Shown here: positions 16,944 to 21,400 of the stretch, in pieces
Layout of the letters: the number at the start of each line of letters is the position of its first letter
Numbering within the stretch: position 1 is the stretch's first letter
DNA from: a virus
Length of the DNA: 22,896 bases
Direction: 5' to 3' (one strand)
IMG/VR virus record: IMGVR_UViG_3300045919_000003
Span: 1 to 22,896 of that record
Program-made: the position numbers and the translations under genes
The notes under the pieces: model-generated
What the model was told of the DNA's origin: nothing
Database searches by the model: none
Seen by the model: the letters and a program-made list of their open reading frames with translations, nothing else

Positions 16944-19139
16944 TTATTTCCCTTTGGAAGGTGGCTTTTGTTTGGCAGCCTGTTGCCGTTGGACTTGGCC
17001 CATCTGTTCAGTTTGTCGTACCTTTTGCACATGATCTATGTGCTTATGTACTACTTGCTGCCTATGGTCCACATGATTCTGCATCATTGCTTGATTAGCT
17101 GCCAATTGATCCTGTGCGGTTTTCATATTGGCTGAGTGAATTTGAATTGCTTCCTCAAGTTTAGCCAACATTGCTTTAGATTGCAAATCATGTTGTGCTT
17201 GCTGAGCAGCCATAGCTTGTTTAAACTGTGTGTTCTGCTGTTCCATTTGCATCTTCTGAGCAGCTTCTTGCTGCTTGATCTGAGACACTTGTTGGATAGC
17301 TTGAACCTTAGCTTGACTCTCCTGAAGTTTAGGATCAGGACGTTGAGGCAATTGACCAGTTTGTGCTACTTGAGGATTCAGTAGGTCTTGGATGTTTGGT
17401 TGCTCTTGAGCTTCCAACATACGCAAGGCTACCTTAACAGGATCAAGAACTCCCATGGGAAGCATCTCTTGAAGACCCTGTGCTTTGATTAGTTTCTCTG
17501 TCTGGGAGATTGCTGAAGGATCAGCACCCGGACAAATCTTGTATTGTTTCTGAGCAAAGTCAGCAGGACCAATGGTAACGTTAATTACCTCTTGGTAGGT
17601 ATTGGGGTTTAGATACGCTGCATTCAACTCAAAGAGCTTCTGGAATTCTTCGTGCAATGAACGGTAGATTCGTTTATATACAGCGGTGAAAACCTTCATC
17701 CCTTGGTCAATGGTAGCCATTGTCGTAGTGGCTGGTGTGTTTTGACCGGGCATCTTACCAACAAAGATTTCCGCCACACTCGCAAGTTCTTTTCCTGAGG
17801 TAATCATTGACCCCATGAGTTGGAAGAGTACAGCAGAAGGTTCCTTGCTAGGCAACGGAACAATTTGTTGTTTTAGATCACTACCTGTAGAGTTTACTGC
17901 TTTCCATTCTCCGGGCATGAATTTGGTTTCTCCCAAGCGGACCTTAAGGCCTTTGCCCAGAAATCCGGACTGGAGATTGTTGAGTGTCCCTGAGTCAATA
18001 AGTTGGTTGATGAGCGAATTAACTGCTTCGTTAATTGGTCCAAGCAAGACGCCGAATCCCAAGTCGTAGAAACTTCCATCGGGATTAGGGATGAATCCGA
18101 ATTTGGTGAAATATTCAATTGGTTCAATCTTAATGACCTTCTTACCCTCATCATCATGGGTAATAGTATTCTCATCAAACCTTGCGGCAATGCGAAGTAC
18201 CTTACCAGATTCTAGGTGGAAGGTTACAATGTAGGGTTCTGGATAATCGTCGTCATCCAAGTCAATGTAAGTGTGTTGCTCAATCAGAGTGTATGGAGTA
18301 GTCTTATCATTGGGAGGTAGTGCCCTATCATCCGTTTTAAGGGGAGTAGGAACAGAACCCAAATCAACATCCAAGAAAACACCAGCTAGTTGCCGTTCCT
18401 TCAGGATACGAGGACTCATTTCAATCACTTGAGAGACACGCTCAGCTTCCTTAAGACTCTTAGCCCAGTAGTTGACTACTAGGTTCTTAGGCAGGATAAC
18501 ATCAGACTTAACTTGCTTGGTAATAGAATCCCAATAGGTCTTCTTAAAGATTGTACCAACCACAGGAAGCATGATAAGGAGTTTATCCATGCCTTCTTCC
18601 CAACCAGTCATCTCATGCATCAACTGGTACGACATGTACATAGACACTCGATCAGCTTGAGCATACTTGGACCCATCGGGGTCTTTACCAATCACTGTAG
18701 ACTTGACTACTTTGCCATCACTAGGGATAAGGCTAGGGTAGGACCGAGCAGCAAACTGCATAGCAGCAGTAGTGAGCAAAGGGTATTTAACATTAGATGC
18801 TTTGGGCCACGGGTAGGTCTTTTCCTCTTTATGTTGAGTGGCTAGTTTAGTCCACTCCTCCATTGCTTTCTCCCACTCCATCCGAGATTCTACATCTTGC
18901 AGATAACCTTCAAGGGCTTCTGATCCAATTGTGTGGAGTTTCTCGTCTTCCAATCCATCAGCGATGTTTTTAGATTCTATGATGCCACGAAGTGCATCAG
19001 TAGGCTGTTGTTGAGTCGGAGGTTGTAGTGCTTGGGTTCCCATTTGATTGGGAAGGGCTTGCGGTTCACTCGGTAACTGGCTAATATCCTGTTGTTGCTG
19101 ACTGCCCGCTTGCTGCCCCATCATTCCGGGATTCTGCAT
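16944..19139 (-). CDS. Portal protein
   Basis: A 731-residue portal, close in length to the P22 gp1 portal (725 aa). The N-terminus is Gln/Pro-rich (1-50). A recognisable portal-family stretch YPWPKASNVKYPLL lies at 109-122, followed by AMQFAARSYPSL. The middle holds IFKKTYWDSITKQVKSDVI, where the wing begins, and SLINQLIDSGTL, with FLGKGLKVR nearby. The C-terminal ~140 residues are Gln/Ala/Met-rich, predicted helical, like the barrel at the top of podoviral portals. They contain five histidines between 689 and 703. AAAAGGAAA is well placed before ATG 19139. The gene's first 59 bases overlap the preceding HNH frame. The portal joins the head to the adaptor and forms the DNA entry ring for the terminase. 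Confidence 0.9.
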   Translation of the reverse strand: MQNPGMMGQQAGSQQQQDISQLPSEPQALPNQMGTQALQPPTQQQPTDALRGIIESKNIADGLEDEKLHTIGSEALEGYLQDVESRMEWEKAMEEWTKLATQHKEEKTYPWPKASNVKYPLLTTAAMQFAARSYPSLIPSDGKVVKSTVIGKDPDGSKYAQADRVSMYMSYQLMHEMTGWEEGMDKLLIMLPVVGTIFKKTYWDSITKQVKSDVILPKNLVVNYWAKSLKEAERVSQVIEMSPRILKERQLAGVFLDVDLGSVPTPLKTDDRALPPNDKTTPYTLIEQHTYIDLDDDDYPEPYIVTFHLESGKVLRIAARFDENTITHDDEGKKVIKIEPIEYFTKFGFIPNPDGSFYDLGFGVLLGPINEAVNSLINQLIDSGTLNNLQSGFLGKGLKVRLGETKFMPGEWKAVNSTGSDLKQQIVPLPSKEPSAVLFQLMGSMITSGKELASVAEIFVGKMPGQNTPATTTMATIDQGMKVFTAVYKRIYRSLHEEFQKLFELNAAYLNPNTYQEVINVTIGPADFAQKQYKICPGADPSAISQTEKLIKAQGLQEMLPMGVLDPVKVALRMLEAQEQPNIQDLLNPQVAQTGQLPQRPDPKLQESQAKVQAIQQVSQIKQQEAAQKMQMEQQNTQFKQAMAAQQAQHDLQSKAMLAKLEEAIQIHSANMKTAQDQLAANQAMMQNHVDHRQQVVHKHIDHVQKVRQTEQMGQVQRQQAAKQKPPSKGK

Positions 19140-19632
19140 AGTATGAATTTCCTTTTCGTAAATTGTCTATTGCAAGTAAATATTGCAAATTTGGAATTGT
19201 ATGCAATCCACAAACATTAGGGTTATTTAAGGGTATAATGTGATCCACATGGTAACCAATAGGACAATTTTTATAGAAAAGTTTTAATTCGTCTAAGTTT
19301 TCCCAGCAAGGGAGAGCTTGTTTTATTCCTTTTCTACGATAAGAAGAATGAAACCGCAAAACATCTTTATTTAAATCACGCCATTTTTTACAATATTCTG
19401 CATGAAGTTCTGGATTTTTTTTCCAAGAAAAATCTTTTGTAATTTTAGTAGTTCTATTATAGTAATCTACTTTTTTCTTATTACTGCATATTTTACACAT
19501 TCTAGCAATACCGTTTGGGCATTTTTTAGCTTTAATAAAACCAGAATATGGAGTTAATATACCACAATAACGACACTCAATATCCTGTTGTTGTAGATTG
19601 CCCTGAGTTGCTTGAACTAGAGAGTTGTTCAT
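19081..19632 (-). CDS. HNH homing-type endonuclease inserted at the terminase/portal junction
   Basis: A 183-residue protein. Two C-x-x-C pairs (C20/C23 and C46/C49) suggest a zinc finger. They are followed by a basic linker and the HNH core YHVDHIIPL (H128, D130, H131) with CGLHTIPNLQYLL (H144, N148) and N157/N162. This is the pattern of free-standing phage HNH nucleases. Its DNA is clearly more AT-rich than the flanking genes. It overlaps the terminase end by 56 bases and the portal start by 59 bases. Residues 7-18 (QATQGNLQQQDI) resemble portal residues 8-19, and its last residues (SGQSATTGY) resemble the terminase end (SGQSTTTGY). This supports an inserted mobile gene that rebuilt both junctions. 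ATG 19632 has no clear Shine-Dalgarno. Confidence 0.9.
   Translation of the reverse strand: MNNSLVQATQGNLQQQDIECRYCGILTPYSGFIKAKKCPNGIARMCKICSNKKKVDYYNRTTKITKDFSWKKNPELHAEYCKKWRDLNKDVLRFHSSYRRKGIKQALPCWENLDELKLFYKNCPIGYHVDHIIPLNNPNVCGLHTIPNLQYLLAIDNLRKGNSYYAESRNDGAASGQSATTGY
19083..19097. repeat. Direct repeat, portal-side copy
   Basis: AATATCCTGTTGTTG is found here and exactly again at 19579-19593, 496 bases away. The similarity extends on the right to about 25 bases with three mismatches. The two copies bracket the HNH gene. Confidence 0.8.
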
Positions 19633-21091
19633 TTAAGTACTCATCTTCCTCTATTTCTTCTTTAGTCGGAGCCTCAATGAGTTTGTCTAGCATTAGACCC
19701 AGATAAGCAAATGCATCTACTTGGTCATCATGCTTACCACGAGGAAAGGTTAAACATTCATTCTCAAAGGTGGGATACCAATCCGCTTCCTTGTTAAACT
19801 TCACACTATGGGCGCGCATACGGGCCTGAATGGAACGAGAACGTGTAATTTTGTCCTTACCCCCATGCTTTAACGGCACAAGACTAAGGTAATTGTTGTT
19901 TTTAATCATCTCTTCCCGTAGGAAGGGTCCAATTGACTTGGAAACCTGCATATCTTCGATACCAACAGCCTCTGGATCATAGACTTGGTTCATAAAAAGC
20001 AAGTTATCTACGATTTGACGTCCATCTAGACGCTCTCGGATAACATCCTTGATGTGAATAATCTTGTTTTCATCAACTCCAGCAAGAATGAAGACAGAGT
20101 AATCTGCCTTTTCTGATTCTGAGATGGCTAAGTCGGCTGTGATGTAGTGATGCATCTTGTGGCTACGGTCTTCTTCAGTAGTAGCCAAGAAATCACTCTT
20201 CTTAAAGAAGGTAACTGACTCATCAAGAGGTACATTCAAGTACTCTTGCGAGTAAATATCTGTTGTTCCATCCCTGACAGCCTCTTCATACATCATCTTA
20301 AACTCAGCAGCACTCTTCTTGGAAGGCCAAAGAAGGTCTGAGAAGTCCTCGTTATGAGCACGATATTTAACTGCTTTCCACATCGACTTGCGTGTGGTGA
20401 ATGTCTTTAGTCCAACTCGTTGTGTTTGCTTGTCCGAGTCATTTGGCATGAAGGATTCCAGCAAGGAGTCATTGTGCAGGATGGTTCCTACGATACGGAT
20501 GATTCCGTTATCAGATCGGCAGGGCAGCAAGGCTCCCTTGAACCATCTACGCATCTTATCTCGACGTTCCTTATTCATCACAAGTTCATCGTTCTCCATG
20601 TCGTCGCACATAATGATGTCAGGACGCGACCCGTTCCAGATTAATCCACGGAGCTTCTGTTCTGCTCCCTTGGCAATGATCCGAAACTTATGTCCGTCCT
20701 CACATTCAACTATAATGTCAGTTTCTGAATCTTTCACAAACTTGACTAAACCATTCTCGCTCCGCTTGATGCGGAACAAATCAATCAACTCATCATTATC
20801 TTGGAGTTCTTGTTTAAACGTACCTAGGAACAAGGACGCTTGGGACTCAGTGTCCGAAACAAGAAGCATGAACTTACGTTCACGAAACAGCAGGGTGGAT
20901 AGCCCATAGCCTAGGGTAACAGCCGTTGACTTAGCGTGCCCTCGTGGGGCAGCTATAGCCACAAACTTATGATCGCTTGTGCAAAGCTCCCAACACTCTT
21001 TGTGAAAGGGTGGGGTAGCACTACGTCCATCGAATCGGTTACCGAGGACAGAGCCGACTAATCCGGCTATAACATCTGCTGTGAGAGTCAA
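19577..21091 (-). CDS. terL: Terminase large subunit (packaging ATPase/nuclease)
   Basis: A 504-residue DNA-packaging motor. The ATPase half has Walker A (APRGHAKST, 48-56), Walker B (DIIMCDDMEND, 158-168; acidic pair D163/D164) and a coupling motif VGTILH (201-206). The nuclease half has an RNase H-like set: TADLAIS (D320), GIEDM (E379) and HDDQVDAF (D455, D456, D459). It cuts concatemers and drives DNA through the portal. The start is TTG 21091, with AGAAGGA about eight bases upstream. No ATG lies close enough to compete. The C-terminus ends NSGQSTTTGY and overlaps the next gene by 56 bases. A 4-base overlap with a reading frame ending at 21088 is noted separately. Confidence 0.95.
   Translation of the reverse strand: MTLTADVIAGLVGSVLGNRFDGRSATPPFHKECWELCTSDHKFVAIAAPRGHAKSTAVTLGYGLSTLLFRERKFMLLVSDTESQASLFLGTFKQELQDNDELIDLFRIKRSENGLVKFVKDSETDIIVECEDGHKFRIIAKGAEQKLRGLIWNGSRPDIIMCDDMENDELVMNKERRDKMRRWFKGALLPCRSDNGIIRIVGTILHNDSLLESFMPNDSDKQTQRVGLKTFTTRKSMWKAVKYRAHNEDFSDLLWPSKKSAAEFKMMYEEAVRDGTTDIYSQEYLNVPLDESVTFFKKSDFLATTEEDRSHKMHHYITADLAISESEKADYSVFILAGVDENKIIHIKDVIRERLDGRQIVDNLLFMNQVYDPEAVGIEDMQVSKSIGPFLREEMIKNNNYLSLVPLKHGGKDKITRSRSIQARMRAHSVKFNKEADWYPTFENECLTFPRGKHDDQVDAFAYLGLMLDKLIEAPTKEEIEEDEYLNEQLSSSSNSGQSTTTGY
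19579..19593. repeat. Direct repeat, terminase-side copy
   Basis: This is the second copy of AATATCCTGTTGTTG. It encodes the last residues and first stop base of the large terminase in one frame and QQQDI of the HNH N-terminus in another. The portal-side copy does the same for the HNH end and the portal start. Confidence 0.8.
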
Positions 21092-21375
21092 TCTGTATTC
21101 CTTCTGCCTTTGTTAGGCGTGTCCGTCGTTACGCTTAAGAGAGCCATCTGAATTTCTTGAAAAACTTCGGTTCTGATGTTCGGAAACAACTCGCGTATTA
21201 GACAACTTATTTGCTCCACCTTTTGAAAGTGGTTTGATGTGGTCAAGGTCTTTGCCATCGCCCTTGTGCGTGATGCCTGCTTTATTAGCTTGTCTGCGTA
21301 AAGTAGTCCGTTCACTTCGGGCGTGTATAGCTGCGGGTTTTCCTGCGTAGAGTTTGTATTCTTTTTTGTAGTCAC
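21088..21375 (-). CDS. Possible overprinted reading frame over the small HNH gene (uncertain)
   Basis: A second open frame of 95 codons, GTG start at 21375, covers 263 bases of the small HNH gene in another frame. It ends with TGA overlapping the terminase TTG start by four bases. The product is a mixed helical sequence (YADKLIKQASRTRAMAK, SCLIRELFPNIRTEVFQEIQ) with no recognised domain. No Shine-Dalgarno precedes its GTG. The neat 4-base overlap with the terminase would suit coupled translation, but the HNH frame is the one with recognisable motifs. This is probably spurious. Confidence 0.25.
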   Translation of the reverse strand: MTTKKNTNSTQENPQLYTPEVNGLLYADKLIKQASRTRAMAKTLTTSNHFQKVEQISCLIRELFPNIRTEVFQEIQMALLSVTTDTPNKGRRNTD

Positions 21376-21400
21376 GATGGCCGTTGGTCATGTATGGCAT
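21113..21400 (-). CDS. Small HNH-motif protein, packaging-associated type
   Basis: A 95-residue basic protein. A helix of ARSERTTLRRQANKAG is followed by HKGDGKDLDHIKPLSKGG (D53, H54), then N68 in SNTRVV and N77 in EHQNRSF. This is the compact HNH form (D-H ... N ... N) that many phages carry next to the terminase. In some phages (HK97 gp74) the HNH protein works with the terminase in DNA cutting. That role is an analogy, not something shown here. I chose ATG 21400; ATG 21391 is an alternative. The gene ends 21 bases before the terminase start, leaving room for its ribosome binding site. Confidence 0.85.
   Translation of the reverse strand: MPYMTNGHRDYKKEYKLYAGKPAAIHARSERTTLRRQANKAGITHKGDGKDLDHIKPLSKGGANKLSNTRVVSEHQNRSFSRNSDGSLKRNDGHA

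Follow-up and report, generated by a model that had tools for sequence, protein, structure and literature searches.

The closest described systems are the mORFs of fungal mitochondria, found in Allomyces macrogynus atp6 and in Glomus atp6, atp9, cox2 and nad3, where a carboxy-terminal duplication flanks an endonuclease ORF, with the carried end being foreign and the native end matching that of relatives (PMC3630166). In T4-like phages, the seg and mob genes are free-standing and sporadic, and several of them overlap the upstream reading frame (PMC2988022). In the Cluster J mycobacteriophage Omega, lysin A acquired a new 3' end through the HNH insertion gp51 and 35 bp were lost, possibly by an error of repair (PMC3706429). 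Additionally, a synthetic home-and-rescue drive named HomeR has been built, in which a homing drive placed on an essential gene also provides its rescue (PMC7968924).

The locus described here comes from a viral record of IMG/VR (IMGVR_UViG_3300045919_000003), and what we call the window is the whole stretch of DNA analysed, of 22,896 nucleotides. On its minus strand the gene order is terminase, HNH gene and portal, and most likely (probability of about 0.85) a free-standing HNH homing gene invaded the terminase/portal overlap carrying a diverged replacement end, with cleavage, mobility and donor being inferred. The insertion, the foreign replacement end, the displaced native end and the recurrence of the pattern are shown from the sequence. 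The features are as follows, L029 (on the same contig as L048) being the closest relative at this site and having no HNH gene:

19577..21091, minus strand: terminase large subunit (phrog_38, E=2e-79), with 97% identity to L029 in the part before the insertion
within 19577..21091, minus strand: final 19 codons of the terminase, the carried (foreign) copy
19081..19632, minus strand: whole HNH reading frame of 183 codons, made of a portal-frame leader, the core and the displaced terminase tail
16944..19139, minus strand: portal protein (phrog_1216, E=2e-21), 98% identical to L029
19140..19635, minus strand: insertion of 496 bp when compared with the empty site L029/L048, with its end directly in front of the portal ATG (blastn and base-by-base comparison)
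19577..19635, minus strand: carried terminase 3' end (left copy), LNEQLSSSSNSGQSTTTGY and stop
19140..19576, minus strand: HNH nuclease core, ECRYC...GNS (phrog_1035; AlphaFold2; 29% G+C)
19081..19143, minus strand: displaced native terminase 3' end (right copy), which is the HNH C-terminus YAESRNDGAASGQSATTGY and stop
19579..19593, minus strand: exact 15-base repeat, left copy
19083..19097, minus strand: exact 15-base repeat, right copy

The terminase and the HNH gene overlap by 56 bases (19577-19632) and the HNH gene and the portal by 59 bases (19081-19139), and both junctions have the same relative frame because the two copies are spaced 496 bases apart, which is 1 mod 3. Translated in the portal frame, the left copy is the HNH leader MNNSLVQATQGNLQQQDI, and the right copy in its other frame is the portal start. 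Between the junctions, 22 of 25 bases are identical, including the exact 15-mer CAACAACAGGATATT (minus-strand 19593-19579 and 19097-19083). All of these relations, namely the two overlaps, the common frame shift and the 22/25 match with its 15-base run, had been claimed by an initial annotation of the sequence and held. That annotation would have been refuted if the match arose only from low-complexity CAA-rich coding, but such coding cannot account for it, since the best 25-mer match in 300 codon-shuffled versions of both gene ends was 18 vs. the 22 observed. Outside the conserved 25-mer, the two copies diverge like the terminase ends of unrelated lineages, with only 34 of 69 bases identical overall. 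The decisive evidence for the observation is the empty-site relative L029/L048 rather than this match statistic.

In IMG/VR, 44 relatives were recovered by a terminase search, and L029 is 97% identical to the window. Its terminase ends in YYAESRNDGAASGQSATTGY before the stop codon, its portal begins with MQNPGMMGQQAGSQQQQDISQLPSEP, and the two overlap by 59 bases. Compared base by base with this empty site, the window has its insertion at TACT^ATG, directly 5' of the portal ATG and with zero recipient bases lost, the boundaries being uncertain by 4-5 bases given that TACT is present at both ends; this base-level comparison covers only the junction of the window. The right flank of the insertion has 0 mismatches to L029 in 114 bp, and the left flank has 3 in 338 bp, two of them close to the insertion, at 5 and 8 bases. 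Of the two copies, the right one, that is, the HNH tail and portal start, represents the native end of the terminase. The left copy, in turn, shares at most 40/69 bases with any of 149 distinct terminase ends, and since it is only 34/69 identical to the right copy while the window and L029 differ elsewhere by about 3%, it is foreign and arrived with the HNH core, without being a fresh duplicate; the two copies are thus more than a simple duplication. With the right copy native and the left copy foreign, the HNH frame is a chimera of a portal-frame leader, a nuclease core and a displaced terminase tail. A donor having the terminase end of the left copy was not found in IMG/VR by an exact-pattern search limited to TAA and TGA stops.

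The HNH core follows the terminase stop codon without a gap and has a zinc-finger-like CxxC module together with an HNH motif (VDHI..GLHxxxNLQ). The protein matches phrog_1035, "endonuclease VII" (E=5e-17), with Pfam HNH appearing only below the cut-off, and the presence of an HNH/EndoVII-type nuclease domain is satisfied. Residues D130, H131, N148 and N157 are invariant across 32 relatives, the PDB fold matches to HNH domains are weak, and no close relative was found in a search of sequenced genomes. The AlphaFold2 pLDDT is mostly 74-98 for most of residues 11-160 and falls to 52-55 in the first ten and last twenty or so residues, which are the borrowed sequence at both ends. The core has 29% G+C vs. 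45% in both neighbours. A group I intron was rejected in the absence of any Rfam match in the window, and an intein was rejected given that the terminase ends at a stop codon of its own and the HNH gene is read in another frame.

The initial annotation had further predicted that an HNH-less relative would show a terminase end near RNDGAASGQSATTGY and a portal overlap of about 59 bases, and this held to the base in L029/L048, which also supports its proposal of an ancestor with terminase directly overlapping portal. Its claim that the displaced terminase tail became the HNH C-terminus with its stop codon held as well, with no mismatch in the right flank, and its own refuter, an HNH-less terminase ending unlike the HNH tail, failed because the L029 end matches. 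Likewise upheld were the intron-free and intein-free character of the insertion and, as far as the sequence tells, the intactness of both essential neighbours, since the replacement end completes the terminase and the native end keeps the portal start. The insertion of an AT-rich HNH gene held for the sequence, with homing itself remaining inferred. The claim that the insertion brought a copy of the junction held only in part, since the carried left copy is foreign. To this model we add that foreign left copy, the site directly 5' of the portal ATG without recipient loss, and the recurrence of the pattern.

Only 4 terminase/portal junctions are occupied vs. about 149 distinct terminase ends, and the HNH gene is therefore sporadic; the sporadic occurrence and exact empty site in a close relative that are required of a homing endonuclease are both seen here, L029/L048 being the empty site. 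Locus L242, which holds the closest relative of the window HNH (phmmer 4.5e-27), has the same junction and architecture: the ATG that opens its frame lies within the terminase end, its core lies directly after the terminase stop (..LLDIKCYSC), and after the core comes the right copy, a second terminase end, reading ..GNKYYGE, stop, IRESGYGKSGVSSVTGY, stop. In L005, an Endonuclease_7 core (Pfam E=6e-24) is fused to a portal-like leader MNSGAPNQTMQGSHLQQV, to be compared with the L004 portal MNSGAPAQTLQGNQASQAID, and a terminase-end remnant, ..KPESTTGY and stop, follows the stop of the EndoVII-type gene. In L065, the HNH gene starts on the terminase stop (TGATG) and the remnant GGGTACTAG stands just before the portal ATG, but with only about 9 bases this is a fainter case than L242 and L005. 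Unrelated nuclease types thus occupy this junction, HNH in the window and L242 and EndoVII in L005, and none of about 215 HNH-free junctions has TGY and stop within 500 bp after the terminase.

As separate observations on this region, L144, L146 and L148 have non-HNH genes between terminase and portal, and in L052, L053, L054 and L068 the portal is 71-75% identical to the window while the terminase is only 50-52% identical, pointing to a recombination breakpoint near the same junction. In L022 a group I intron (231-882; Rfam, 52.5 bits) with an open frame inside lies in the terminase gene, and in L038 (830-1620) and L039 the terminase is broken after ..PDIIM by an apparent split intein (starting CHAEGTMINTPETG, ending GISHN, followed by residue C), and an HNH gene in another frame lies between the terminase halves. 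One terminase family hence hosts an intron, an apparent intein and end-replacement insertions.

The pattern was also sought at other genes by comparing the C-termini of 128 HNH-like ORFs (some redundant) with that of the gene directly upstream. Seven matched, those of the window, L242, L034, L237, L066, L052 and L251, with scores of 31-53, the next own pair scoring 18. Scores of at least 31 occurred in 11 of 30,842 cross-locus pairs, about 7 of which compare two occupied TerL/portal junctions and 4 of which involve one spurious L004 ORF. The cases away from the terminase/portal junction are these:

L034:6310-6795: HNH gene between GroES-like and scaffold-like genes, tail matching the GroES-like end (DEDLICVIKH/DEDLICIIKG)
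L237:7026-7496: HNH gene between GroES-like and scaffold-like genes, tail matching the GroES-like end (DIDILAKVDV/DIDILAKVEE)
L066:4333-4803: HNH gene between GroES-like and scaffold-like genes, tail matching the GroES-like end (DEDCLGVLK/DDDLLGVIK)
L052:4797-5276: EndoVII-type gene, tail repeating the end of the upstream scaffold-like gene (ELRKVRG/ELKKVRG)
L251:181-660: HNH gene, tail repeating the end of the upstream tail-like gene (IPATAR/IPATAR)

The three GroES-site genes (L034, L066, L237) may descend from a single ancestral insertion. Outside the case of the window, the copies differ mostly at third codon positions (synonymously at the GroES-like sites), and therefore both copies evolved as coding ends before meeting; for the same reason, scanning the HNH flanks simply for DNA repeats was a weak approach, and the protein comparison was the more sensitive one. 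No tail mimicry was obvious on inspection of eleven HNH genes from named phage records. The idea that HNH genes generally mimic the N-terminus of the gene downstream was rejected, the best own pair scoring 25 and some cross pairs higher. Within this non-significant class, the HNH genes L131:2092-2607, L233:2158-2694 and L004:5123-5512 begin similarly to the downstream gene family (MPFMKN.., MNQSD/MTHSD), and the resemblances in L131 and L004 are possibly no more than anecdotal.

It could be argued that the HNH protein is a packaging cofactor of the HK97 gp74 type, or like Skunavirus HrdP, and no homing parasite, given that HrdP occupies the same terminase/portal position in all 89 Skunavirus genomes analysed (PMC12724721). 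We find this very unlikely, however, because a 97% identical relative and nearly all junctions lack the HNH gene, which thus fails the conservation beside the terminase throughout the phage group that marks a packaging HNH (4 of about 149 distinct junctions), because the junction hosts nucleases as unrelated as HNH and EndoVII, and because another, small HNH gene, found upstream of the terminase in 52/113 distinct loci, is a better packaging candidate. In the window, this candidate is a 95-aa gene at 21113-21400 on the minus strand.

An in situ tandem duplication of the junction, with the HNH gene filling it later, has in its favour the two direct-repeat copies with their 15-base exact run. 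Against it, copies only half alike in a window about 3% different from L029 elsewhere rule out that the right copy gave rise to the left one by recent duplication, so this rival is very improbable, and in the window it is refuted barring a later gene conversion of the left copy from another phage. Just as improbable is an ancestral HNH state lost from L029 by deletion between short repeats: the presence of TACT at each end of the insert speaks for it, but the HNH gene is likewise missing from L001-L003 and from about 145 other distinct junctions, and L001-type terminase ends resemble the right copy.

In our preferred reading, invasion by an HNH homing gene with a replacement end, the mobile unit would be a replacement terminase 3' end plus the HNH core. 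The sequence shows that the replacement end keeps the terminase whole, that the displaced native end preserves the portal start and gives the HNH gene its C-terminus and stop codon, and that the HNH start is an ATG within the replacement end, where an overlapping portal would begin. By inference, without cleavage or mobility data, the HNH protein would cut relatives that lack the HNH gene, at the native terminase end or close to it, repair would copy the unit into the cut recipient, and the diverged replacement end would rescue the essential gene while being a poor target for re-cutting, the putative donor being a related phage whose terminase ended differently. Such a unit would in effect be a natural home-and-rescue element. 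A bolder reading, which we offer tentatively and with the odds slightly against it, is that 3'-end invasion of essential genes is a general, undescribed phage homing strategy beside introns and inteins, in which diverged, protein-preserving replacement ends would rescue the gene and resist re-cutting as natural home-and-rescue drives, and displaced gene ends would accumulate as homing-gene C-termini.

The locus illustrates a way for a selfish gene to invade two overlapping, essential phage genes with no need for splicing. It accounts for odd HNH C-termini and for the unusual variability of adjacent gene ends, its signature of an HNH tail equal to the tail of the upstream gene can be scanned across all phage genomes, and it suggests that home-and-rescue drives may exist in nature, with cleavage and immunity inferred. 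No phage description of a carried replacement end was found in the open-access literature searched, with subscription papers mostly outside, which is weak evidence of novelty.

Compared with the known systems, the window shares with mORFs an endonuclease gene in the 3' part of a gene, with a foreign in-frame C-terminal replacement end and a native end displaced downstream and matching relatives, thus fulfilling the mORF architecture. The mORF enzymes, however, are LAGLIDADG or GIY-YIG and organellar, a requirement that the HNH/EndoVII enzymes of phages do not meet, and in the window the displaced end still serves as the start of the next gene in a two-gene overlap. The T4 seg and mob genes are likewise free-standing, sporadic and overlapping with the upstream frame, but they are described as intergenic, with no carried or displaced ends in the relevant sections of PMC2988022. 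Omega gp51 is also an HNH gene at a gene end that gave its host gene a new 3' end, but no second copy of the gene end was reported for it (PMC3706429), and HomeR resembles the window element in its essential target and rescue, except that it is engineered whereas cleavage and immunity are inferred here. Most likely, then, with homing inferred, the window element is a phage, HNH, overlapping-gene variant of the known C-terminal-replacement homing element.
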